A stretch of DNA of 64,000 nucleotides. Origin: Gracilaria domingensis. Taxonomy: Eukaryota; Rhodophyta; Florideophyceae; Gracilariales; Gracilariaceae. Each line of letters starts with the position of its first letter. The first letter of the stretch is position 1. Where the stretch lies: contig VCMS01000033.1 of the NCBI GenBank assembly GCA_022539475.1, positions 62,001 to 126,000 on the forward strand, in the 5' to 3' direction. Below are positions 1 through 44,770 of this stretch, piece after piece. Made by a program: the position numbers and the translations under genes. The notes below the pieces were generated by a model, which saw only the letters and a list, made by a program, of their open reading frames with translations, was not told the origin of the DNA and ran no database searches.

Positions 1-220
1 ATACTATCCCTTCCTCTCTCGTCTTCTTCTGCAGGAGCACCTGTTAAATTAGAAGTACATGCGAGCCATTTGTGCTGACAGAGGCGCTCCCTCGCAAAGG
101 AGCCCTGCAATTCTTACTTCATATGGCTGTTTTCTTACTATTTCTCCAACAAGGTAACGCACCAGCACGACAACAACACACCAATCTTCTATCAGAAAGT
201 GAGACTACGGCGGGTGCAAG

Positions 221-3621: not shown

Positions 3622-6030
3622 TCAAGCCAAGACAGCAACGGTGGAGCCCACGGGTAGGCTACAAAGCGCCGAGCGAACGCGCTCCTCCACTCTGAACTGA
3701 GCCTTGGGTGTCAGCGTCATGAAAACCTGATAGGCACTTTGCACTCTGCCTCCGTTAAAGCAGCAGGCAGTGAGCGTCACACCCACATTCTCCCACGTAT
3801 CCACTCGTCGATCCTTCATCTCATCATAAATAGGGATGGCATCCGCCGCCATGGAGCTACGGCAGCACGCGTCAATCAGCGCCGAGTACGAGACGGGATC
3901 CGGGTCCACGCGCTGCTTCCTCATCAGTTGATGTAGCTGCAGCGCAAGCTGTCCATCTCTTGTCTTGGCACACGCGCACGCAAACGCGTTGAACGTAACC
4001 CGCGTCGGCCGCACGCCCGAGGCAATCATCTCCTCCAGCACGCACCACGCCCTGCTGAGCTCACCCTGTCTGCCAAGAGCGTCAATGAGCGTGTTGTACG
4101 TAACCTCATCCGGTTGCACGCCAAACTGTCGCAGTTCCGACAACACTGTAAATGAGCGTTCAATGTCGCCGCAGCGGCCGCACACGGCCACGAGCGTATT
4201 GAGCGTGTACACATCCGGCTTGATGTTCTCGCTGCGCATCTGGTTGGATAGCTTGTATGCCAGTTGCAGGTTCTTGGTTCGCCCGCACGCGTCAATGAGC
4301 GCGTTGTACGAGACGGCGCACGGCTTGATGCCCGAGGCCACCATGCGGTTGAACACATCAAACGCCTTGTCCAGTCGCTCCGACTTGCCGCAGGCGTCAA
4401 TCAACGAGTTGTACGTGTGGCGGTCCGGCGTGTAGTTGTACGAGTTGGTCATGGAGTCCAGCGCCTCAAACGCCCTGGGCAGGTCTCGCGCACGGCCGCA
4501 CGCGGAAATGAGCGCGTTGAAGGTGACCTTGTCCGGGCGCAGACCCGACTGCAAAATCTCGCGATACACCTCGAAGGCGCGTTCCACCAGCTTGACGCGG
4601 CCGCAGGCGTCGATGAGCGCGTTGTACGCAAAAATGTCCGGGTGGATGTTGTTGGCCTTCATGCTGGCCAGCACCTGGAAGGCGCGGTGCGGCTGCCTGG
4701 CCTTGGAGCAGGCGTCGATGAGCGAGGCGTAGCACACGCGGTTGGGCTGGATGTTGTTGTGCTGCAGGCGGTGAAAGACGTCAAAGGCGCGGTCGACGTC
4801 GCGCGTCTTGGCGCAGGCGTCGATGAGGGTGCCGTAGGTGATGACGTCCGGCTTGCGGCCGGTGGTCTCCATCTCGTGCAGCAGGCGGAAGGCGTCGGCC
4901 TTGCGCGCGCGCTTGACGTACACCTTCATGAGCGCGTTGTAGGCGACGACGTTGGGCTGCACGCCGTCGTTGATCATGTCGCGCAGCGCGGCCTCGGCCT
5001 TGTGCAGGTTGCCGACGCGGCCAAAGGCCTCGATGAGCGCCGAGTAGGAAAAGGCGTTGGGCTGCACGCCGTGCGCGCGCATGCGGTTCATGCACTTTTC
5101 GGCGTTGGCGACGCGGCCGCTCTTGCCGTACGCGCAGATCATGATGGAGTAGGAGGCGACGTCGCGCTCGAGGCCGTTGCGGTCAAACTCGGCAAACAGC
5201 ATCTCGGCGTCGTGCAGGCGGTTGGCCTTGACGACGGCGTCCAGCAGCGAGTTGTAGTGGCGGGTGCGGAACAGGCGGCGCTGCGCGTTCTGGAACAAAA
5301 TGTCTCGCGCGCGGTCGATCTTGCGGCGGCGCAGGCAGTTTTCAAACTGGCGCACGACGTGCGGGTCGGAGCCGTTGTGCTGCTGCTGCGGCTGCGGCTG
5401 CTGCGGCTGCTGCGGCTGGTGGTGGTGGCGGTGGTTGTGGTGGTGGGCGGGCGTGGGCGAATTGGAGTGGGCTGGGGAGGTGGCGGCAGCGGTGGCGGCG
5501 GCATTGGCGCCGGGGGTGGAGGCGGCGCTGTCGGCGGCGGCCACCAGCGGCGACAGCGCGGCCGGTGACGCGCAGACCAGCGACAGCTGCGAGCGCGGCG
5601 CGGCGCGCTCGGGCGGCGGCGGCGGCGTTGGCGGCGGCTGCGGCGGCGAGTGCGGCTGGGCGTGGGGGCGGGGGTGGGCGGCGGGCTGCACGGTGGGGCA
5701 CAGCACGGCGTCGGCGGGCGGCGCGTGGTGCGGGTGCGGGTGCGGGTGCGGGTGCGGGTGCGGGTGCGGGTGCGCGGCGGGTCGCGGCTCGCGGCGGCGG
5801 CGCTTGGGGTCGTCGGCGGTCCACACGCCGGTGTTCGCCCAGATGGACTGCACGGGCTGCGGGGTGACGGGCGCGCCCCAGGCGGCGGCGACGGCGCGGT
5901 CGAGCGCGCGCGCGGCGGTGGCGTACGGCGCGCGCGGCGGCGGCTGCGCCGAGGTCTGCGACGCGGCGTGGCTGCGCACGAGCGCGGGCGGCGGCAGGAA
6001 GGCCGGCGCGTGCGCGCGCGGCGGGAACAT
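3622..6030 (-). CDS. P-class pentatricopeptide repeat (PPR) protein, probably organellar RNA-binding
   Basis: The protein has 802 aa. Residues 1 to about 225 are Pro/Ala/His/Gln-rich with an HP dipeptide run, consistent with a plastid or mitochondrial leader plus a disordered linker. From about residue 225 to 770 there are roughly fifteen regular 35-residue PPR motifs of the P class. Many carry a YNALIDACGR-like helix A, giving a very uniform solenoid. P-class proteins bind single-stranded organellar RNA to stabilise or process transcripts. The motif style, with the repeated signature LIDACG, recalls the algal and plant RbcL-mRNA stabiliser MRL1, but that identity is only an inference. No DYW or SMR domain is seen. 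The gene is head-to-head with TRMT13, 331 bp away. A C/T-rich leader precedes the ATG. Confidence 0.9.
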   Translation of the reverse strand: MFPPRAHAPAFLPPPALVRSHAASQTSAQPPPRAPYATAARALDRAVAAAWGAPVTPQPVQSIWANTGVWTADDPKRRRREPRPAAHPHPHPHPHPHPHPHHAPPADAVLCPTVQPAAHPRPHAQPHSPPQPPPTPPPPPERAAPRSQLSLVCASPAALSPLVAAADSAASTPGANAAATAAATSPAHSNSPTPAHHHNHRHHHQPQQPQQPQPQQQHNGSDPHVVRQFENCLRRRKIDRARDILFQNAQRRLFRTRHYNSLLDAVVKANRLHDAEMLFAEFDRNGLERDVASYSIMICAYGKSGRVANAEKCMNRMRAHGVQPNAFSYSALIEAFGRVGNLHKAEAALRDMINDGVQPNVVAYNALMKVYVKRARKADAFRLLHEMETTGRKPDVITYGTLIDACAKTRDVDRAFDVFHRLQHNNIQPNRVCYASLIDACSKARQPHRAFQVLASMKANNIHPDIFAYNALIDACGRVKLVERAFEVYREILQSGLRPDKVTFNALISACGRARDLPRAFEALDSMTNSYNYTPDRHTYNSLIDACGKSERLDKAFDVFNRMVASGIKPCAVSYNALIDACGRTKNLQLAYKLSNQMRSENIKPDVYTLNTLVAVCGRCGDIERSFTVLSELRQFGVQPDEVTYNTLIDALGRQGELSRAWCVLEEMIASGVRPTRVTFNAFACACAKTRDGQLALQLHQLMRKQRVDPDPVSYSALIDACCRSSMAADAIPIYDEMKDRRVDTWENVGVTLTACCFNGGRVQSAYQVFMTLTPKAQFRVEERVRSALCSLPVGSTVAVLA
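5735..5775. repeat. GGGTGC hexanucleotide tandem repeat inside the PPR gene
   Basis: Six to seven tandem GGGTGC units (plus strand) encode the His-Pro dipeptide run near residue 95 of the PPR protein. The repeat is in frame, so length changes would not shift the reading frame. Confidence 0.85.
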
Positions 6031-6361
6031 GGCGGCGGGTGGGTGGGGTCGGGGGGAGGGCGGAGGGAGGAGGGACTTGGCGGAAGACGCGCGTTCAAAA
6101 GCGGGGCGCGCGCGCGGGAGGCGGAGTGCATTGAGTGCGCGGCGCGCGCCAGCGCGCGGATTTAGCGGCGGCGCGGCGGCGCGCGCGGCGCGGCGGCCGC
6201 TGGCGCCGCCGCGTGCGGCGCCGCCGCGTGCGGCGCAGCCGTGGCGCCTCGCGTGACGGCGCCGTCACGCGGCGCGTCATGCGCGCCGTCGTCTGCGCTC
6301 CCCCCCGCGCCGCCGCCGTCGCCGCGCGCCGCGCGCCGCATCGGCGCACGCGGCACCCCCC
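6031..6361. promoter_or_regulatory. Shared upstream region of the divergent PPR and TRMT13 genes
   Basis: This 331-bp, extremely GC-rich spacer lies between two divergently read start codons. On the PPR side it reads as a C/T-rich leader next to the ATG. The tandem GCGCC-type words around 6170-6290 form many short inverted repeats. A bidirectional promoter is inferred from geometry only; no TATA box is evident. Confidence 0.4.
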
Positions 6362-7756
6362 ATGGCGCGCTGCGCGTTCGGCGGCGGCGCGCGCGCCTGC
6401 CGGCTGCCCGCGGCCGCGGGCGCGCGCTTCTGCGGCGCGCACGCGCCGGGGCGCCCGCCGTGCCCCGCGTGCGGCACGGCGCTGCGCGACGACGGCCGCG
6501 CGCTGGCGCGCCACCTGCGCCGCTGCCCGGCCGCGGCGCGCCGCCGCCGCCTGCAGCGCCAGCCGTGGGTGCGCCGCGACGCCAACCTGCGCGCGCCCGC
6601 CGCCGCGCACCCGCCGCGCGCGCCCGCCGCGCGCGCGGCGCCGCTGCCGCGCGCGGCGCTGGCGGCGCTGGCGCTGCTGGCGCCGCCCGCGCCGCCGCCG
6701 CCGCCGCTGCGCGAGGCCGCCGCGCTGCGCGCCGCGTGGGCCGACGCGCGCGACAGCTCGCTGCGCATGCAGCCGCGCCACTTTGAGCAGATGGCCGCGC
6801 TGGTGGCGCTGGCGCTGCGCGCGGCCGGCGCCGACGCTGCGCCGCCGGCGCCGGCGCCGGCGCCGCTGGTGGTGGAGGTGGGCGCCGGGCGCGCGTACAC
6901 GGCGCTGCTGGCGGCGCACGCGCTGCGGCTGCGCGGCGCGGCGCCGCACGTGGTGGTGGTGGACCGGCGCGCGCCGCGCTGGAAGGCGGACCGCACGCTG
7001 CGGCGCTGGGCGGCCGCGGGCGCGCTGCGCTCGTTTGCGCGCTGCGGCGGCGAGCTGGAGCACGTCGAGCTGCTGGCGCTGCCGCACGCCGCCGCCGCGC
7101 GCCACGTGCTGCTGCTGGGCAAGCACGCGTGCGGCGACGCCACCGACGCGTCGCTGCACGCCGCCGCGCGGCTGGCCGCGACGTCGCGCGCCGCGCGCCG
7201 CATCACGCTCGTGCTGGCGTGCTGCTGCCGCGCGCTGTGCTCGCCGCGCACGCACGTCGCCGACTGGTGGCGCGCGCGCGCGGCGCTGCCGCTCTACGCC
7301 GAGCTGTGCCGCCGCAGCGCGCGCGGCCTGCACGGCGGCGCCCAAGCTGTCGCCATCAGCGACGGCGACGCCATCAGCGACGGCGACGCCATCAGCGACG
7401 GCGACGCCATCAGCGACGGCGTCGCCCGAGGCGACGCCAGCAGCGACGGCGGCGCCCGAGGCGACGCCAGCAGCGACGGCGGCGCCCGAGGCGACGCCAT
7501 CAGCGACGGCGCCGCCCAAGGCGCCGCCAGCAGCGACGGCGGCGCCGCCCAAGGCGCCGCCGCCGCCATCAGTGACAGCGACGGCGCCACCGCGCGGCTG
7601 GCGCTGGACAACGCGCGCGCGCGCTGGCTCGCCGCGCAGCCCGGCTGGAGCGCGCACCTCTGCGCCTACACGCAGCTCAGCCCGGAGGGGCTGTGCATCG
7701 TCGCCTCGTGGCGCCGCGCGCCCGACCAGTCTGGTCCAACAACAACATCATCATAA
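6362..7756 (+). CDS. TRMT13: tRNA 2'-O-methyltransferase TRMT13 (Trm13)
   Basis: The protein has 464 aa. Residues 4-27 hold a CCCH-type zinc finger (CAFGG...CGAH) and residues 34-54 a CHHC finger of the U11-48K type (CPACG...HLRRCP), the paired fingers typical of Trm13. The Rossmann methyltransferase part follows, with a SAM loop VEVGAGRAY near residue 178, the family hallmark GKHACGDATD near 255 (usually SKHLCGxATD) and LACCCRALC near 285. Trm13 methylates the 2'-O of position 4 in certain tRNAs. Between the catalytic core and the C-terminal motif is an odd tandem insert of Ser-Asp-Gly-rich repeats (about residues 325-405). The gene ends 57 bp from the convergent eIF5 gene. Codon third positions are almost all G or C. 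Confidence 0.92.
   Translation: MARCAFGGGARACRLPAAAGARFCGAHAPGRPPCPACGTALRDDGRALARHLRRCPAAARRRRLQRQPWVRRDANLRAPAAAHPPRAPAARAAPLPRAALAALALLAPPAPPPPPLREAAALRAAWADARDSSLRMQPRHFEQMAALVALALRAAGADAAPPAPAPAPLVVEVGAGRAYTALLAAHALRLRGAAPHVVVVDRRAPRWKADRTLRRWAAAGALRSFARCGGELEHVELLALPHAAAARHVLLLGKHACGDATDASLHAAARLAATSRAARRITLVLACCCRALCSPRTHVADWWRARAALPLYAELCRRSARGLHGGAQAVAISDGDAISDGDAISDGDAISDGVARGDASSDGGARGDASSDGGARGDAISDGAAQGAASSDGGAAQGAAAAISDSDGATARLALDNARARWLAAQPGWSAHLCAYTQLSPEGLCIVASWRRAPDQSGPTTTSS
7345..7575 (+). repeat. In-frame SDG-type minisatellite in TRMT13
   Basis: Four near-perfect copies of GCCATCAGCGACGGCGAC are followed by about five 30-bp derivatives encoding the motif ASSDGGARGD and variants. 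All units are multiples of 3 bp, so the frame is kept. The insert sits within the C-terminal half of the methyltransferase, before its last conserved segment. Confidence 0.85.
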
Positions 7757-7813
7757 ACAAAAGTCCACAAACACTTTTACTACACACAAACGTTAAAAAC
7801 GCCTCACTCCTCC

Positions 7814-8489
7814 TCACTCCTCCTCCTCCTCCTCGTCGCTCTCCTCCTCGTCGCTCCCCTCCTCCTCCTCGTCCTCCTCCTCCGCGTTCTCCAGCCAGTC
7901 CACAATCACGCGCACCGCGTCCTTCACCTCCGCCTTGAGCGCCTCGCCGCGGAACCAGCGCACAATCACCTCCTCCTCCACCAGCCCCGCGTCGTAGCTC
8001 AGCTTGAGCACGTGCGGGAACATGGGCACCATGCGCTCGTCGTGCGCCGCCGCCCACTCAAAGTACTGCAGGAACGCCTGCTGCGCCTCCACCGCCATGG
8101 GCGCGCCCAGCTCGCGCAGCACCTGCAGCGCGCGCTCCGACACGCTGGCCTGGACCGCCGCCAGCGGCTCGTCCACCACCGCCGCCTTCACAATGCCCTG
8201 GATCGTGCCGTGCACGCCGAACAGCTTCTCCGACTTGGTGATCACCTTGCTGGCGCGCTTGCCGTCGTCAATGTACGCGCGCAGCTTGCGCACCTTGTTC
8301 CACTCGTCCACCGCGCCCGAGCGCTCCAGGATGCACGCCGCCGCGCCCAGCTCGCGCTGGCGCGCCTCCTGCGCCTCCTTGGACGTGTCCACGCTCCACT
8401 GCACGTTGTCGTCGTCGTTGTCGTCGTCGTTGTTGTCGCCGTCAAAGCCGCCGCCAAAATCCGCCGCCGAAAACTGCAGCTCGTCGTCG

Positions 8490-12230: not shown

Positions 12231-15200
12231 ATGAGTGGAGCGGAGTCAACCTCAGCTGCTGTATCAACAGTGACTTTCCTTTTGAATGAAGCGGTCAAGT
12301 TTGGGGAGAGAATCCGAAGTGGCGAACAAATACCGCAAGACTTGGACGGACTTTGTAGACACAGAGATTGGCTTTGTGACAACATCAATCGATTCAGTCT
12401 CTTGCTGCAGAAGAAAGGGGTGCAGCACTATGCCCTTTCATGGACCCAACAACTGTCAGAGGCGCAATCGGAGCTTGACAAAATACTGCCTGAAAACAGA
12501 AGAGGTATGTGGGATAGACATGTCAGAAGAGACCGTGGGCATCTTAAGCAAGCCCTCAAAATTATAACAGCTGTTCAAGAAGAAGTCAGGGACACTATGG
12601 CCACTCTCAACCTATTAGCCGACTCCTTCAAAGTTTTTCATTGGAAGCCACATCTACCCAGGAACCCTTATGTCCACTGCGATGAAAAGAATGTGGATGG
12701 CGAGATGGTACGTGAGGGAAAATTGAAGCATCTTGTGCTCTCGTCAGCTGATAGTGGCAGAGTCTCAACGTACTGTGCGCACGGACCAGGTGGTATGGGC
12801 AAGACTGTCGCGCTGAAGTGGCTTTGCACAGATACTGGAGTTGAGGAACACTTTGAAGACGGAGTGCATTGGTTTTCGTTTGGAGAGGACCTCGAAGAAA
12901 AGAATTTACTAGACCAGATTAGAATATGTGCGTTGAACTGTGGGTCGAAACAACTGGAAGAAGAAATGCGCAATGAGGCCAACATGAGTGTGAGGGTTGC
13001 AATCAGGAAGCTGTGTCGATTGTTTGAATCGAGGAAAATTTTGTTTGTTATTGATGATGTATGGAATAAGAACAAGGATGAACTTTCATGGTTCCAAGCA
13101 GGTCTGAGTTGTGGAACCAATTGTACTGTTGTGATCTCAAGCCGTGATGAAATGATCAGTGGCGGATGTGACGAAGCGGTATCATTCATGTACTTGCCAA
13201 CGAGAGGAAAGGTTTCTAGGGAGGTGTTTCTATCATACTTGGGAAACGATAAAAAGGACGATGTACTTGAGTGGGAGAAGGAAAGTGAGGTATGTAGAGG
13301 TGGGTTGCAGAAGGTTCTGGAGGAGTGCGGGGGATGGGTGCTGTGTCTTTCAATTGCTGGTGCGATGTTGAGAGAAGAAGTTAGGGACTGTTTCGACGTG
13401 GACGATGCGTCTGAAGTGATTGATGAGTGGGTGCGGAATCTAGCTGATGAAGGTGATCTTACTGGCAAACGCATTGGGAATTATGATCGAAGCTTACAAT
13501 GTATTGTGTTTCGAAGTCTGAATCATGTGAAACAAAGACTGAAGAAAGATTTCTTTCAAGAAAGTCTGTGGTCATCAGTTGAAGACAAGTTCAAGAGGTT
13601 GTGCATAATGCAAAAGCAGAAGCCAATGCCAATAGGTATGTTGCAACGATTATGGGCGCTCGACAAGAAGCACACGAATCGGCTAGTGAATTGCATGAAG
13701 GAGATGTGTTTGGTGGAGGTGATTCGCGAGAAGAGGGCGGGTAAATTCATTCGAGCGCATGACAAAATCATTGATCTATGTCGAGAGAACGTTGATAAGA
13801 AAGAAAAGGGCATAGCAAAGTATCATGAAGAAGTGCTGGAGTCCTTTCTTGGGCAAAGTACAGAAATGAATCGGTTCGGAGATAACTGGTATCGTCCATG
13901 GTGGGAGCTTGGACATGAGGAGGAGTACATGATGGAAAACTTGGGCCACCACCTTGTAGAAGCAAAACGCGAAAAGGAATTGTGGGGATTGCTATGCGAT
14001 GCGAGATTCATGATGCGATGGCTAGAAGACAAGAGGGGATGGATTGGTGTGGCAGTAAACTTTAGGCGGGTAACTGAGGCTGGAATCGAAGTGGAGGAAG
14101 AAGTGAAAGCGTTGCAAAGGGCATTACAGAGCTGTTGGCCTAGAATAAGCAAACACCGGTACTCACTTGGGTTTCATATGTTTGGACGTCTGGAAAAGAA
14201 AGAGGGTGGAAGCATATGCGCGTTTCTAGAAAGCATAGAAGAGTTTGAGAGGGGTGCGTGGCTTCAACCGGTACAGCCATATCTGGCTCCACAGGATGAC
14301 AGGGAGGAGGCACGTTGGGATGTAAGTGAATATGGAGTTCCTACATGGATCTCTAATGATTTCTCAACTGTGGCGCTCTGGGATGACAGAGCAGATACCT
14401 TAACGTTTTATGACCCAGAGCAGCAAGAAGCGGAGAATGGACCTCACGAGGTTCCATCCTACCCGAGGCTCAGTTACGATGGGAAGTTCGCGATTTGTGT
14501 TGCCAATGAAGAAAACAGTACTACAAAAGTGCACGTCTATCAACCGGGGAAAGAGGTGAACAAAATAGACTTGAATGGCACTCAAAGCCAAGCACGGTTT
14601 CAAGCAGCGAGCGCATGGGCTATTCACTGTGCGGAAACGTTTGTGCTTGGATTCGAAGATGGCAGTTTGGAAGTAACATTTGTGTGCAATGACAATCGGT
14701 TGTCGCACGTGCGACTCACTGGGCACGCAGGTCGGGTTAGGTGCGTGGCGTTCAGTGGCGATGGCACGCTGGTGGCTTCTGGTTCGAGTGACAAAAGCGT
14801 GCGGGTGTGGCGCGTATGCGATGGCAAGCAGCTGCACTCGTTCACTGGACACACACATTCGGTTAACGGCGTCGCGTTCAATGGGGATGGCGCGCTGGTG
14901 GCTTCCGGTTCGGATGACGGAAGCATGCGGGTGTGGTGCGTGTGCGATGGCAAGCAGCTGCACTCGTTCGCTGGGGACACAAATTGGGTTGAGTGCGTCG
15001 CGTTCAGTGGCGATGGCACGCTGGTGGCTTCCGGTTCGGGTGACAAAAGCGTGCGGGTGTGGCGCGTGTGCGATGGCACGCAGCTGCACTCGTTTACTGG
15101 GCACACAGATGACGTTAACTGCGTCGCGTTCAATGGGAATGGCACGCTGGTGGCTTCCGGTTCGGATGACGAGAGCGTGAGGGTGTGGCGCGTGTGCGAT

Positions 15201-16565
15201 GGCAAGCAGCTGCACTCGTTCGCTGGGGACATAAATTGGGTTGAGTGCGTCGCGTTCAGTGGCGATGGCACGCTGGTGGCTTCCGGTTCGGGTGACGAAA
15301 GCGTGCGGGTGTGGCGCGTGGGCGACGGCACGCAGCTGCACTCGTTCACTGGGCACGCAGGTCGGGTTTGGTGCGTCGCGTGCAGTGGCGATGGCACGCT
15401 GGTGGCTTCTGGTTCGGAGGACGAGAGCGTGAGGGTGTGGCGCGTGTGCGATGGCAAGCAGCTGCACTCGTTCGCTGGGGACATAAATTGGGTTGAGTGC
15501 GTCGCGTTCAGTGGCGATGGCACGCTGGTGGCTTCCGGTTCGGGTGACGAAAGCGTGCGGGTGTGGCGCGTGGGCGACGGCACGCAGCTGCACTCGTTCA
15601 CTGGGCACGCAGGTCGGGTTTGGTGCGTCGCGTGCAGTGGCGATGGCACGCTGGTGGCTTCTGGTTCGGAGGACGAAAGCGTGCGGGTGTGGCGCGTGTG
15701 CGATGGAAAGCAGCTGCACTCGTTCACTGGGCACACAAATTGGGTTGAGTGCGTCGCGTTCAGTGGCGATGGCACGCTGGTGGCTTCCGGTTCGGGTGAC
15801 GAAAGCGTGCGGGTGTGGCGCGTGGGCGACGGCACGCAGCTGCACTCGTTCACTGGGCACGCAGGTCGGGTTTGGTGCGTCGCGTTCAGTGGCGATTGCG
15901 CAATGGTGGCCTCCGGTTCGCATGACAGAAGCGTGCGGGTGTGGCGCGTGTGCGATGGCAAGCAGTTGCACACGATCACTGGGCACACACGTTTTGTCAA
16001 CTGCGTGGCGTTCAGTGGCGATGGCACGCTGGTGGCTTCCGGTTCGTTTGACAAAAGCGTGCGGGTGTGGCGCGTGTGCGATGGAAAGCAGCTGTACTCG
16101 TTCACTGCGGACACACATTGGGTTCGGTGCGTCGCGTTCAGTAGCGATGGCACGCTGGTGGCTTCCGGTTCGGATGACAGAAGCGTGCGGGTGTGGAATA
16201 CAGGACAAAGTACATCCGAGGCCAGTCATGTTTGGAACGTGGCAGATAGACCTGAACGCGTATTCTTTACCTTGGAATCTGATGACACGAGTGCCATTAG
16301 TGCCGTGCTTTCTGATGGTACCACTTTGACGTGGACAAGCCCTTGGTCTGGCCCCGCTTCGAAAGAAGCGGTAAACACAGCGAAGGAACACGTTTCTTGG
16401 AAATTGGAAGGTTCGAAAGTAACAGTTTTGCGTGGTAACGATATGGTCACAATAGCGGAGATGCCCAGTGATATGGACGTCTGCACGTCCTACTGGAGCG
16501 CGAAAACTACGGTGTACGGGATGCGCGACGGAGGAGTGATTATCTGCAAGTTTCATGATCCATAA
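12231..16565 (+). CDS. NLR-type protein: helical N-terminus, NB-ARC ATPase, WD40 array
   Basis: The protein has 1444 aa and is a STAND-class signalling ATPase. Residues 1-150 are helical and unassigned. NB-ARC motifs follow: P-loop GPGGMGKT (about 186-193), Walker B ILFVIDDVW (about 270), RNBS-B-like VVISSRDE (about 300), a GxP-like GGWVLCLSIAGAML, and an MHD-like RAHDKIIDLCRE near 508. APAF1-like helices are next (ENLGHHLVEAKREKELWGLL, near 570). A weak beta-rich region (about 690-825) precedes twelve 42-residue WD40 units, almost identical to each other, and a 115-residue tail. Such proteins sense a ligand with the propeller and oligomerise on nucleotide exchange. I use the ATG at 12231; the open frame extends 15 bp upstream from a TTG. 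It is an intronless single exon. A defence or allorecognition role is inference. Confidence 0.9.
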   Translation: MSGAESTSAAVSTVTFLLNEAVKFGERIRSGEQIPQDLDGLCRHRDWLCDNINRFSLLLQKKGVQHYALSWTQQLSEAQSELDKILPENRRGMWDRHVRRDRGHLKQALKIITAVQEEVRDTMATLNLLADSFKVFHWKPHLPRNPYVHCDEKNVDGEMVREGKLKHLVLSSADSGRVSTYCAHGPGGMGKTVALKWLCTDTGVEEHFEDGVHWFSFGEDLEEKNLLDQIRICALNCGSKQLEEEMRNEANMSVRVAIRKLCRLFESRKILFVIDDVWNKNKDELSWFQAGLSCGTNCTVVISSRDEMISGGCDEAVSFMYLPTRGKVSREVFLSYLGNDKKDDVLEWEKESEVCRGGLQKVLEECGGWVLCLSIAGAMLREEVRDCFDVDDASEVIDEWVRNLADEGDLTGKRIGNYDRSLQCIVFRSLNHVKQRLKKDFFQESLWSSVEDKFKRLCIMQKQKPMPIGMLQRLWALDKKHTNRLVNCMKEMCLVEVIREKRAGKFIRAHDKIIDLCRENVDKKEKGIAKYHEEVLESFLGQSTEMNRFGDNWYRPWWELGHEEEYMMENLGHHLVEAKREKELWGLLCDARFMMRWLEDKRGWIGVAVNFRRVTEAGIEVEEEVKALQRALQSCWPRISKHRYSLGFHMFGRLEKKEGGSICAFLESIEEFERGAWLQPVQPYLAPQDDREEARWDVSEYGVPTWISNDFSTVALWDDRADTLTFYDPEQQEAENGPHEVPSYPRLSYDGKFAICVANEENSTTKVHVYQPGKEVNKIDLNGTQSQARFQAASAWAIHCAETFVLGFEDGSLEVTFVCNDNRLSHVRLTGHAGRVRCVAFSGDGTLVASGSSDKSVRVWRVCDGKQLHSFTGHTHSVNGVAFNGDGALVASGSDDGSMRVWCVCDGKQLHSFAGDTNWVECVAFSGDGTLVASGSGDKSVRVWRVCDGTQLHSFTGHTDDVNCVAFNGNGTLVASGSDDESVRVWRVCDGKQLHSFAGDINWVECVAFSGDGTLVASGSGDESVRVWRVGDGTQLHSFTGHAGRVWCVACSGDGTLVASGSEDESVRVWRVCDGKQLHSFAGDINWVECVAFSGDGTLVASGSGDESVRVWRVGDGTQLHSFTGHAGRVWCVACSGDGTLVASGSEDESVRVWRVCDGKQLHSFTGHTNWVECVAFSGDGTLVASGSGDESVRVWRVGDGTQLHSFTGHAGRVWCVAFSGDCAMVASGSHDRSVRVWRVCDGKQLHTITGHTRFVNCVAFSGDGTLVASGSFDKSVRVWRVCDGKQLYSFTADTHWVRCVAFSSDGTLVASGSDDRSVRVWNTGQSTSEASHVWNVADRPERVFFTLESDDTSAISAVLSDGTTLTWTSPWSGPASKEAVNTAKEHVSWKLEGSKVTVLRGNDMVTIAEMPSDMDVCTSYWSAKTTVYGMRDGGVIICKFHDP
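14718..16205 (+). repeat. Twelve-unit WD40-coding tandem array, 126-bp period
   Basis: Twelve units of 126 bp each encode one WD40 blade with the core VAFSGDGTLVASGS...SVRVW. Units 5-6 and 7-8 form a 252-bp higher-order unit (15219 and 15471) that is identical over about 200 bp, and a third, slightly diverged copy starts at 15723. Variation concentrates at two places: the four residues before VxCVAF (THSV, TNWV, TDDV, INWV, AGRV, TRFV, THWV) and the residue pair after VASGS. Because the period is a multiple of 3, spurious open frames run across the whole array on the other strand. Confidence 0.95.
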
Positions 16566-41973: not shown

Positions 41974-42888
41974 TCACAACACAACTCCGACCCCATTACA
42001 TGTGTCACAGAACACTCCGCCAGCACCATAACAAAGTTGGCATCGAGAACTTGAAATGCCAGAGGTAATGCATCGAGGGCATTGCATCAGTCCTGTTCCG
42101 TTGCAAACCGAGCACTTTGCAATAGACTTGTTCTTTGCTGGTGAAGTTTTTGATTTCGTTTTCGCATCGGGCTGCGGATGTGAAACTTGGGATGTCTTCT
42201 CATCGACTACAAGTTCTTTCGAGTTATTGGCGATACGCCTTTGGTTGGCTCTTCTCAGGCGCTTTTCGCGATTGCTGTTGAGCGTTCGTACGACGGACTC
42301 GGGGGGCTTTTCAAGTTTGGCCACTCGTTTGAGTATTCTATCTACATGAGCTGCTTCGATTTCGTCATGAACAACTCTTTTCCGCACACGCTTCTCTGGT
42401 TGCGTAGTAACGGATGTAATTAAGCGGGATTCCATCGCCTTTTCTCTCAGCTGATCAATTGCTTCCTCTTGCACTGGTGGCTTCTGAGGTTGTTCTGACT
42501 TCTTTTGCTTCGCTTTGGCAGACATTGCGCGAGAAATCTTTGCTCGGCTCTCGGCGGAACGCTTTCGACCGTACATCGGATTCTGGGAACCTTCAAAGCG
42601 ACGTCGGAGGGATTCGCGGTGCTCGGCGGACTTTCGACGACCCTTGAGCGCATCTGATATCTTCTTGCGCGTTTCAGGCCGCATGGGCATCCGCCTTCTC
42701 CGGGCATCGTTTGCTTGCTCTTCGTCACCCGGTGAAGAGGTGTTCTGCGTGCCTCTGCTTATTCTGTGACGTGAGGTTATGGTGAAAACGAATGGACGAC
42801 AATGTACTCTCGGACGCAGTCTGCATATTGAAGGCGAGGTGTCGAAATGGGTAAGCGGCTTTGGCAGAGTTACGAAAGCCGCCTGCAT
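41974..42888 (-). CDS. NUMOD3 motifs plus DnaJ-type zinc finger protein, probably plastid
   Basis: The protein has 304 aa from the ATG at 42888. The first 45 residues (MQAAFVTLPKPLTHFDTSPS...) look like a plastid transit peptide. Residues about 68-120 hold NUMOD3-type motifs, small DNA-binding modules usually found beside homing nucleases (RKKISDALKGRRKSAEHR; NPMYGRKRSAESRAKISRAM). A basic helical linker follows. The C-terminus (about 257-304) has four CxxC pairs arranged as in the DnaJ cysteine-rich domain (CSVCNGTG, CPRC, CQLCYGAG, CDTCNGVG), with no J domain. Such free zinc fingers occur in plastid chaperone-like proteins (BSD2, PSA2). No nuclease motif is visible. The combination suggests nucleic-acid binding joined to a protein-folding or redox module. 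Divergent from the FIST gene. Confidence 0.75.
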   Translation of the reverse strand: MQAAFVTLPKPLTHFDTSPSICRLRPRVHCRPFVFTITSRHRISRGTQNTSSPGDEEQANDARRRRMPMRPETRKKISDALKGRRKSAEHRESLRRRFEGSQNPMYGRKRSAESRAKISRAMSAKAKQKKSEQPQKPPVQEEAIDQLREKAMESRLITSVTTQPEKRVRKRVVHDEIEAAHVDRILKRVAKLEKPPESVVRTLNSNREKRLRRANQRRIANNSKELVVDEKTSQVSHPQPDAKTKSKTSPAKNKSIAKCSVCNGTGLMQCPRCITSGISSSRCQLCYGAGGVFCDTCNGVGVVL

Positions 42889-43183
42889 CTGGGCGACATC
42901 TGATGTGAACCGAGTGGAGTTGCGTACGCTCTGCCATTGCGAAGAAGACTTTGGTGTTTCGAGGATAAAGGGGGGCGTGTCGAGAGAGACGAGAGGTTGA
43001 GAAGCTGCGAGACGGGCGCAATTGGAACGAGAAGTGGCCAATTGTGGAAAGGCATACACGCCGGAATGAATGCACACGATCTCGACATCGCCACGTGCGC
43101 ATTGGGCTCTTTCTTCGTTTTTGGCGCATTGACAAGACGACGATCCCCCCCGAGCGCCGCCCTCGCGTCCGTCGCAACAAACC

Positions 43184-44770
43184 ATGTCTGCAGCTTTCGT
43201 TCCACATACGCCCACCCTCACTCGAGTGAAATGCACGCCGCCCTCCTTGCGCTGCCGTCTCCCGCGGCGAGTGGCCCGTGCCCCCCGCCGTCAGCGTCCG
43301 CTCTGTACAGCGCAGCAGAACCCGGTCCCGCCCAAGGACGAGGTAGCACCGCAGCTTGCGTTCTCCACAGCGGCGTCGTCCGCCCCCACGTTGAGCTCCG
43401 CCTTAACTGAAGCTGCTTCACGTGCCCTTTCAAAGCTTGGCCCCGGAGGACCTCCTCACGTGGCCTTTGTCTTCGTTTCGGTGCGCTACAGCCTATCGAA
43501 CATCGGTCCGTCCGGTCGCGACTCGCTCGACTTGGTGGTGCCCCGCCTTCGCGCCTTGGTGCCAGAGCTGAAGGCAGTTCTTGGATGCACTTCCGACGGC
43601 GTTATCGGCAGTGGCCCCTTGAGCGATGTTGTTGAGTTGCAGGACGTACCTTCGGTTTCGATTACACTGGCCCGCCTTCCCAAAATGAAGATAACTCCAT
43701 TCCACGTGATGCCGGATGATTTGCCGAATCCGGACGCCAGACAGAGCGAGTGGAGGCGCCTTGTATCTAATCCAGACGACACGAACCATCCCCCAGCGTT
43801 TATAGTGCTCTCAGATCCGAGCTTCGCTGAAAGGGGAGAGCTCGATACTTTTCTGTCTGGCGTAGAGTTTGCGTATCCTGGCAGCTGCGTAGTTGGTTCC
43901 TTAGCTTCTGCTGCTGCGGCTTTTGCCCAGGGACACATGTTTTGCACATTGCCCAGAGATGTGCTTTCGCCACACTCTTCGTCCTTGAGAGACTCGGGTT
44001 TGGTAGGAATCGCATTAACGGGTGATATTGAGCTAGACTGCCTTGTTTCATCTGGCTGTCGTTCTATTGGACCTACGTATGAAGTGCGCAAAGTTTCCAA
44101 TGGCATTGTTCGCGAGATGGAGTTGGTTGGACGCCCATCCACCCTCATGTCAGCAATGTCGCATTTGAAGAGCATCATATCCTACGCAACACCACAAGAA
44201 AAGGTTCTCATGCAAGATCAACTGCATGTGGGAATTGCCATCGAATCTGTTGCCAACTCAGATTCCGACTCCGAAGCTTACCTTATTCGACATGTGAGAG
44301 GAGTTGATATGGATGGTGGGGGTATTTCAGTCGCCCACAACATCCGTCCTGGTCAACGCATTCGTTTCGTTTTGCAAGAAGCGGAAGCCGCGGAAAAAGC
44401 GCTGGACGCCAACATACAAAGGTATAAGCGTGCAGAACTGGCCAATTCTTTAGTCGGGTATAGCAATCCGCCTTTTGGAGCGATGGTGTTCGTTGACAAT
44501 GGTCGTGGCCGAGCTCTCTTCCGTGAGCCACGCATGGAAACGAAGAACCTAACAGAGTTTGCGACAGGGGTACCTATAACTGGATGCTTCGCTGGGGGAC
44601 AGATTGGTCCCTGCAAATCCGGTGCAGGTAACAAGAATATGCCCTCTGTAGTTCATCATGCAGCAAACCTTATCGCCTTTGTTCGAAGAAGAAGTGGTAT
44701 CTCACCGGCGGAACCTGTTGATAGTCCTTCCACCTCAGGCGCTGATCTCGATGAAACCCCGGAGAAGTAA
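43184..44770 (+). CDS. FIST-domain protein with plastid-type leader
   Basis: The protein has 528 aa. Residues 1 to about 55 are Arg/Pro/Ser-rich and look like a transit peptide. The FIST N domain covers about 90-300 (HVAFVFVSVRY, LGCTSDGVIG, VVGSLASAAA) and FIST C about 330-490, ending in the typical GVPITGCFAGGQIGP. FIST domains are thought to be small-ligand sensors and occur in bacteria, in plant and animal F-box proteins (FBXO22) and as stand-alone cyanobacterial proteins. No F-box is seen here, so a plastid protein of cyanobacterial type is plausible. The C-terminal 40 residues are disordered. The gene starts 295 bp from the divergent NUMOD3 gene. Ligand unknown. Confidence 0.85.
   Translation: MSAAFVPHTPTLTRVKCTPPSLRCRLPRRVARAPRRQRPLCTAQQNPVPPKDEVAPQLAFSTAASSAPTLSSALTEAASRALSKLGPGGPPHVAFVFVSVRYSLSNIGPSGRDSLDLVVPRLRALVPELKAVLGCTSDGVIGSGPLSDVVELQDVPSVSITLARLPKMKITPFHVMPDDLPNPDARQSEWRRLVSNPDDTNHPPAFIVLSDPSFAERGELDTFLSGVEFAYPGSCVVGSLASAAAAFAQGHMFCTLPRDVLSPHSSSLRDSGLVGIALTGDIELDCLVSSGCRSIGPTYEVRKVSNGIVREMELVGRPSTLMSAMSHLKSIISYATPQEKVLMQDQLHVGIAIESVANSDSDSEAYLIRHVRGVDMDGGGISVAHNIRPGQRIRFVLQEAEAAEKALDANIQRYKRAELANSLVGYSNPPFGAMVFVDNGRGRALFREPRMETKNLTEFATGVPITGCFAGGQIGPCKSGAGNKNMPSVVHHAANLIAFVRRRSGISPAEPVDSPSTSGADLDETPEK

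Follow-up and report, generated by a model that had tools for sequence, protein, structure and literature searches.

The described systems closest to the gene studied here, a predicted receptor of the red alga Gracilaria domingensis, are the HNWD proteins of the fungus Podospora anserina (HET-D, HET-E and HET-R). Passages of PMC1805685 and PMC12222747 describe their WD40 units, codons under selection, a unit number that varies and degenerate blades flanking the array, and passages of PMC1805685, PMC2873952, PMC4986451 and PMC12222747 document concerted evolution together with selected codons in fungal WD40 NLRs. For red algae, a TIR-NB-ARC-WD40 architecture in Chondrus crispus appears in a passage of PMC9806590, and NB-ARC and WD40 proteins of Pyropia and Porphyra in passages of PMC6928737, where three such genes of Pyropia yezoensis go up during oomycete infection; the passages of both papers on red-algal proteins contain nothing on array homogeneity or selection. 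Among the matches listed in the literature searches, no title or abstract reported WD40 arrays of red algae that are homogenised and diversifying. The gene lies in a 64,000-nucleotide stretch of the G. domingensis assembly (contig VCMS01000033.1, positions 62,001 to 126,000 of the forward strand), hereafter the window, and, as judged from its sequence and predicted blades, it probably encodes a nucleotide-switch receptor with a fast-diversifying WD40 sensor on the top face of the propeller, evolving like the WD40 NLRs of fungi. Red-algal NB-ARC-WD40 proteins are already known; the selection pattern described below was not reported for them among the matches listed.

As in Podospora HNWD, the WD40 units are 42 residues long and closely resemble one another, they vary at codons 7, 9, 25 and 27 with equal spacing (in a register that we infer, see below), their number differs, here between paralogues (12 versus 5), and degenerate blades lie on both sides of the array. 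In contrast to the fungal proteins, the window gene falls short of the NACHT cut-off (19.7 bits against 26.7) on the stretch where NB-ARC scores 63.0, and no HET domain was found in residues 1–520 at an E-value of 10 (within HMMER's filters) or in residues 1–161 at 0.1. With neither NACHT nor HET, the gene stands outside the fungal HNWD family though evolving alike. Concerted evolution in the fungal proteins works across the gene family; the best-scoring DNA matches of the window array lie at one other locus, and the units are as alike between these two genes as within them. Like the Chondrus, Pyropia and Porphyra proteins, this is a red-algal protein with NB-ARC followed by WD40, but unlike that of Chondrus it gave no TIR match in residues 1–520 at an E-value of 10. 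The order NB-ARC, winged helix, helical arm and WD40 is also that of Apaf-1; the CARD that forms the Apaf-1 N-terminus had no Pfam match in the window gene, whose N-terminal model is weak. The blades of Apaf-1 are diverged. Bacterial NB-ARC-WD40 proteins, for example L075 from a Terriglobia metagenome-assembled genome, resemble the window gene in carrying an array of near-identical 126-bp WD40 units, and share 23% identity with the red-algal query over residues 143–601 (NB-ARC to arm).

The WD40 array and its variable codons

The features on which the argument depends are as follows.

12231..16565 (+), predicted receptor gene, one open frame of 1444 residues with ATG at 12231, a stop codon ending at 16565 and no internal stops
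14706..16217 (+), 12 WD40 units of 126 bp (42 residues), residues 826–1329, delimited by unit profile, Tandem Repeats Finder and predicted blades
15168..15676 (+), latest expansion, an exact tandem duplication of units 5–6 and 7–8, with 257 bp identical at a shift of 252 (15168–15424 = 15420–15676)
Starts at 14706 + 126(u−1) + {21, 24, 27, 33, 81, 87}, u = 1–12 (+), hypervariable codons 5, 6, 7, 9, 25 and 27 in fungal numbering

The array is detected by Tandem Repeats Finder as 11.8 copies with a period of 126 bp, 85% match and a score of 2136, far above chance, and a profile matched 12 WD40 stretches in the protein. A preliminary description of this DNA had claimed a complete NB-ARC module followed by twelve 42-residue units, and this holds, with NB-ARC at 63.0 bits against a cut-off of 23.5. 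Its wording that the units are nearly identical overstates the likeness across the array as a whole, since the DNA identity of units 2–11 averages 87.5% (range 82.5–100%). Amino-acid identity is 78% across 30 core positions of the 10 pattern-matched units, so that the 85% used as a criterion in a passage of PMC4986451 is reached by part of the array alone. The repeated 252-bp pair that had been reported at 15219 and 15471 proved stronger than claimed: in that register 249 of 252 positions are identical (the third copy, at 15723, matches 15219 at 234 of 252), while in the register 15168/15420 the identity is exact over 257 bp. The 12 units carry 10 distinct combinations of residues at the six variable codons. 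In the four-gamete test, 23 out of 91 pairs of sites fail, which fits recombination but also recurrent mutation. Third-codon-position GC is 0.72 in the array and 0.48 in the first 600 codons. GC-biased conversion was considered as a mark of homogenisation and discarded, there being no tie to array identity among 21 full-length genes, whether GC at third positions is taken as such (Spearman 0.12, p = 0.61) or as its excess over the N-terminal part (0.22, p = 0.34).

An exact repeat of 257 bp within an array raises the question of whether similar repeats were mis-assembled and the unit number is wrong, and according to a passage of PMC12222747 comparable fungal arrays came from long reads rather than Illumina assemblies. 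We consider such an artefact quite improbable: the frame is intact across 1444 residues, 10 distinct six-residue combinations in 12 units could not be created by collapse or random duplication, and the tests on paralogue pairs described below are independent of unit number.

Codon numbering follows the Podospora work in a passage of PMC1805685, and the register was placed without gaps because the selected codons 7, 9 and 25, 27 flank the conserved positions 8 and 26, and because the HET-E unit printed in a passage of PMC12222747 has an equal spacing from V8 to D26. When amino acids were counted at all 42 codons (window units 2–11 together with units 2–4 of the closest copy, on contig C218), the most variable were 27, 25, 7, 6, 9 and 5, in that order, in agreement with the clusters of differences noted previously. 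They include 7, 9, 25 and 27, reported to be the four codons under diversifying selection in Podospora HET-D/E. The array of another locus (L030), built on a different framework, changes most at codons 6, 25, 7 and 9. Positional entropy was also ranked in the seven arrays with at least four pattern-matched units, and the six positions filled the top six places in the window and L030, five of them in L013 and L032, four in L037 and L047, and two in L011; because the search pattern fixes many framework positions this ranking is biased, and the counts over all codons were used instead.

The AlphaFold2 model has 12 blades of good confidence, with predicted strands at 8–13, 19–24, 28–33 and 39–44. 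Positions 5–7, 25 and 27 fall in loops in all 12 units, namely the d–a and b–c loops, and position 9 comes second in strand a, so that five of the six variable positions would lie in these loops, the sixth on a strand, and none in the core. In a passage of PMC1805685 the four selected residues of HET-E are placed in the corresponding loops on the top of the propeller. The loops of the opposite side (14–18 and 34–38) are conserved.

Closest copy and tests of selection

The DNA search with the array, which scores best candidates only and skips very common words, matched one other locus, L013 on contig C218.

11479..16948 (+), segment common to the window and C218 (L013), 86–88% DNA identity, broken by the difference in unit number

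This copy adjoins a partial ArsA copy, and part of the neighbouring ArsA open reading frame (ORF) of the window is likewise matched on C218. It is split across two frames near residue 683 and may therefore be a pseudogene, or the split an assembly error. Having 5 units where the window gene has 12, it differs by seven, which is also the usual blade count of one propeller, and none of the six-residue combinations of its 5 units recurs among the 12; the nearest paralogue thus departs from the window gene both in unit number and in every combination. In the end units, 10 of 12 variable codons differ between the two genes versus 6 of 72 others. Synonymous divergence falls in steps along the gene, from 0.48–0.63 (codons 1–300) to 0.38–0.42 (300–500), 0.14–0.19 (codon 500 to the array) and finally 0.013 (the 122 codons at the end), which would suit a more recent exchange of sequence between the 3' parts; that last C-terminal stretch differs from the C218 copy by 16 non-synonymous changes and 1 synonymous change. 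Gene-specific clustering of the units was not found, identity being equal within and between the two genes (84.6% within the window gene against 84.2% between genes). Homogenisation within the gene since the duplication is accordingly shown for the exact 252-bp copy alone.

Since variation is confined to few codons, targeted mutagenesis of the diversity-generating-retroelement type, writing the variable codons from a template, was also considered, and was rejected as extremely improbable. The array search gave two places, both NLR genes, with no separate template among the candidates it scored, and two framework codons that contain adenine are retained, GAT16 in 11 and GAC26 in all 12 of the 12 units.

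For tests of selection, the four fungal codons (7, 9, 25 and 27) were fixed beforehand, and minimum-change counts were compared with the pooled synonymous rate. The ratio was 3.26 in window units 2–11 (p = 0.0009) and 3.41 in L030 (p = 0.0013), while codons outside the six gave 0.36 and 0.52. The six-codon set was picked on the window and is an independent test for other genes only; in L030 it gave 3.66 (p = 0.0001). Four recent paralogue pairs were then aligned position by position, which avoids comparing units with each other; two of the pairs share L015 and are not fully independent. Left out were L019/L024 (no full frame), the group on contig C28 (808-residue frames) and the window with L013 (frame-shifted, and compared in the end units only). 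The ratios were:

L031/L037, four codons 3.19 (p = 3e-7), six codons 3.25 (p = 3e-10), bottom loops 0.80, remaining blade 0.72
L026/L027, four codons 2.97 (p = 2e-5), six codons 2.97 (p = 2e-6), bottom loops 1.00, remaining blade 0.48
L015/L016, four codons 1.91 (p = 0.008), six codons 1.95 (p = 0.002), bottom loops 0.18, remaining blade 0.27
L014/L015, four codons 1.60 (p = 0.08, weak), six codons 1.83 (p = 0.02), bottom loops 0.07, remaining blade 0.39

With p < 0.05 in all four pairs for the six codons and in three of four for the four codons, amino-acid changes are in excess at the variable codons of the window array, of L030 and between paralogues.

Several results weigh against a fast-diversifying sensor, and some of them favour relaxed constraint, in which surface residues are free to change after a recent tandem expansion with no recognition-driven selection. 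Loop positions vary more in WD40 proteins generally, which would be in keeping with this. When the comparison is restricted to synonymous sites within these codons, which are few, the excess in window units 2–11 is not significant, either for the six codons (non-synonymous 23, synonymous 3, p = 0.27) or for the four (p = 0.64). When the scan was widened to 118 loci plus the window, eight arrays had at least seven pattern-matched units, and a four-codon excess was found in three of these (window, L030 and the bacterial L075) and not in the other five; L082, with units 82% alike and as homogeneous as L030, gave a ratio of 0.41. In L030, codons 27 and 5 tie with codon 13 and the unit end (39–42). 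In L031/L037, synonymous change at the six codons is as frequent as non-synonymous change (0.438 and 0.440), and in the other three pairs, where it is lower, the two rates are 0.237/0.305, 0.184/0.275 and 0.054/0.267, so that unit exchange may cause part of the excess. The DNA identity of units is 84.6% within the window, 83.6% within the C218 copy and 84.2% between them, and hence the units may owe much of their diversity to the time before the duplication or to exchange between loci. Among the 40 other loci that were read, most lack a tandem array (period 126–138 bp, at least 2.5 copies) and 10 have one; these ten were not each confirmed as WD40, and two of the 40 loci were too short for one. 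In the structural model, the blades superpose on solved WD40 or designed propellers at about 6–9 Å root-mean-square deviation (rmsd), so that any grouping into closed propellers is tentative, and in the uncertain N-terminal fold residues 1–33 have a predicted local distance difference test score (pLDDT) below 50. Even so, relaxed constraint appears rather unlikely, because in two arrays the four codons chosen a priori change faster than synonymous sites overall, the six-codon excess recurs in every gene pair, the bottom loops, though equally exposed, remain conserved, and the end units of the window and L013 differ so disproportionately at the variable codons. The earlier suggestion of a fast-evolving recognition receptor is thus supported by the paralogues, the codon counts and the predicted blades.

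The gene family and the layout of the predicted receptor

That the host is a red alga, as had been proposed from the sequence, is confirmed in the assembly searched (77.9 Mb, 680 contigs), where contig C680 holds eight full phycobiliprotein matches, of which six form three pairs of neighbours, and one 878-residue frame contains two further phycobiliprotein pieces. We take the three pairs, the two single genes and the apcE-like frame to be red-algal plastid genes. The genome search gave 88 NB-ARC matches and the protein search added one (on C305), making 89 places, and 28 of 42 TIR_2 matches have such a place no more than 1.6 kb away; in L009 and L045 a Pfam TIR above cut-off lies upstream of NB-ARC. 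Some members of the family have a TIR N-terminus and others a helical one. The 40 loci read, from 87 others, comprised the 20 with the highest scores and another 20 that ranked lower; 20 of the 40 have a frame of at least 1100 residues, and all of these match the window-unit profile after NB-ARC. The NB-ARC-WD40 family is large, and the window gene can be regarded as one of its strongly repetitive members. Four TIR-NB-ARC loci (L046, L048, L040 and L041) stand in a row on contig C28 at about 271–303 kb, three at 99.1–99.5% DNA identity over 6.6–7.0 kb and the fourth at 95–96% over 3.6–4.1 kb only, and on these identities they appear as a very recent NLR cluster. NB-ARC matches of equal score also occur across contigs (C104:8173 and C494:17449; C74:6540 and C522:276), so that part of the contigs may represent alternative haplotypes or have been copied recently. 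Many bacterial NB-ARC relatives have 126-bp tandem arrays, few of which fit the WD40 pattern used; L075 gave a four-codon ratio of 2.40 (p = 0.0033), and four other bacterial arrays had no excess.

From sequence and fold prediction, the protein consists of a helical N-terminus, NB-ARC, a winged-helix domain, a helical arm and the WD40 blades.

12231..12635 (+), N-terminal helical region, residues 1–135, with helices at 5–29, 34–54, 65–83 and 94–129 in the AlphaFold2 model
12648..13520 (+), NB-ARC nucleotide-binding module, about residues 140–430, from the Pfam profile
12783..12806 (+), P-loop GPGGMGKT, residues 185–192, with G185, G188, G190 and K191 invariant among 27 aligned family sequences
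13041..13064 (+), Walker B LFVIDDVW, residues 271–278, with L271, D275, D276 and W278 invariant in the 27 family sequences
13755..13763 (+), AHD at the end of the winged helix, residues 509–511, with H510 at least 90% conserved in the 27-sequence alignment
13908..14255 (+), helical arm, residues 560–675 (AlphaFold2), aligning with the helical region of Apaf-1 that precedes its WD40 part
14298..14705 (+), degenerate beta stretch upstream of the array, about 3 possible blades suggested by sequence, pLDDT below 50
16218..16562 (+), degenerate C-terminal stretch, about 2–3 possible blades suggested by sequence, pLDDT below 50

NB-ARC reached 63.9 bits in the genome search, and the AHD presumably occupies the place of the MHD motif. 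It is probable that the gene encodes a STAND-class NLR-type receptor, with NB-ARC, an MHD-like motif and a C-terminal repeat sensor. The N-terminal helical region, a putative signalling domain, had no Pfam match in residues 1–161 at an E-value of 0.1 or before residue 166 at 10. A HeLo/SesA-type N-terminus was considered; SesA matched 3 of 11 relatives weakly (best E-value 0.007) and did not match the window gene. Plant CC-type NLRs align from residues 33–35 in the fold list, but at 17–29 Å rmsd across several domains.

The best fold match is to Apaf-1, across residues 135–682 and including the winged helix, which would suit a constitutive scaffold of the Apaf-1 or WDR kind, or a developmental regulator, with an array whose copy number varies without meaning. 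A null mutant of an APAF1_C/WD40 gene of Ulva was recovered (a passage of PMC8891106), from which it may be supposed that not every such protein is a variable receptor. A scaffold with a fixed partner would nevertheless be expected to keep its contact face, while this gene belongs to a large family with TIR-bearing sisters whose paralogue pairs diversify at the same codons, and we judge the scaffold explanation highly improbable.

Proposed mechanism and other features of the window

The diversification pattern is observed in the codons themselves; for a diversifying receptor, ligand binding, the switch steps and output we infer from Apaf-1 and plant NLRs, with which the architecture agrees. 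The propellers would hold an ADP-bound NB-ARC monomer off until a ligand, which could be a microbial effector, a modified host protein or a non-self partner, binds the top face and frees the switch. NB-ARC would then swap its nucleotide and oligomerise, and the clustered N-terminal helical domains would signal, probably to defence or cell death, the TIR-bearing sister genes using TIR for this purpose. Recombination between similar 126-bp units would add, remove and reorder blades, with selection favouring new residues at codons 5, 6, 7, 9, 25 and 27 and keeping the remaining blade. If this is true, the fungal mode of NLR sensor change, in which similar blades recombine and selection acts at the same top-face codons, also operates in a red alga, and acts on NB-ARC rather than NACHT receptors in a family with TIR-bearing sisters. 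It would represent a convergent or very old design of immune receptors that lack leucine-rich repeats. For red seaweeds, about whose immunity little is known, it would supply candidate recognition genes with residues to test.

A bolder reading, which we consider unlikely, is that red algae run a HET-like allorecognition in which NB-ARC-WD40 receptors, with recombining propellers that diversify at the contact face, police cell fusion and nuclear transfer between individuals, among them red-algal parasites, which fuse with their hosts; the machinery of fungal heterokaryon incompatibility would then have been put to use separately here, or very long ago.

An Rfam search of the 64-kb window gave no match. 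Elsewhere in the window, an ORF with a NUMOD3 motif (39.8 bits) at 41974–43236 (−) stands beside a FIST-domain ORF at 43184–44770; NUMOD3 motifs are linked to homing endonucleases. A PPR protein with 14 PPR_2 stretches is encoded at 3622–6030 (−), and a 30-bp tandem repeat at 7364–7546 (5.9 copies, 90% match in Tandem Repeats Finder) sits in a very GC-rich stretch, with 80% GC over 6001–8000.
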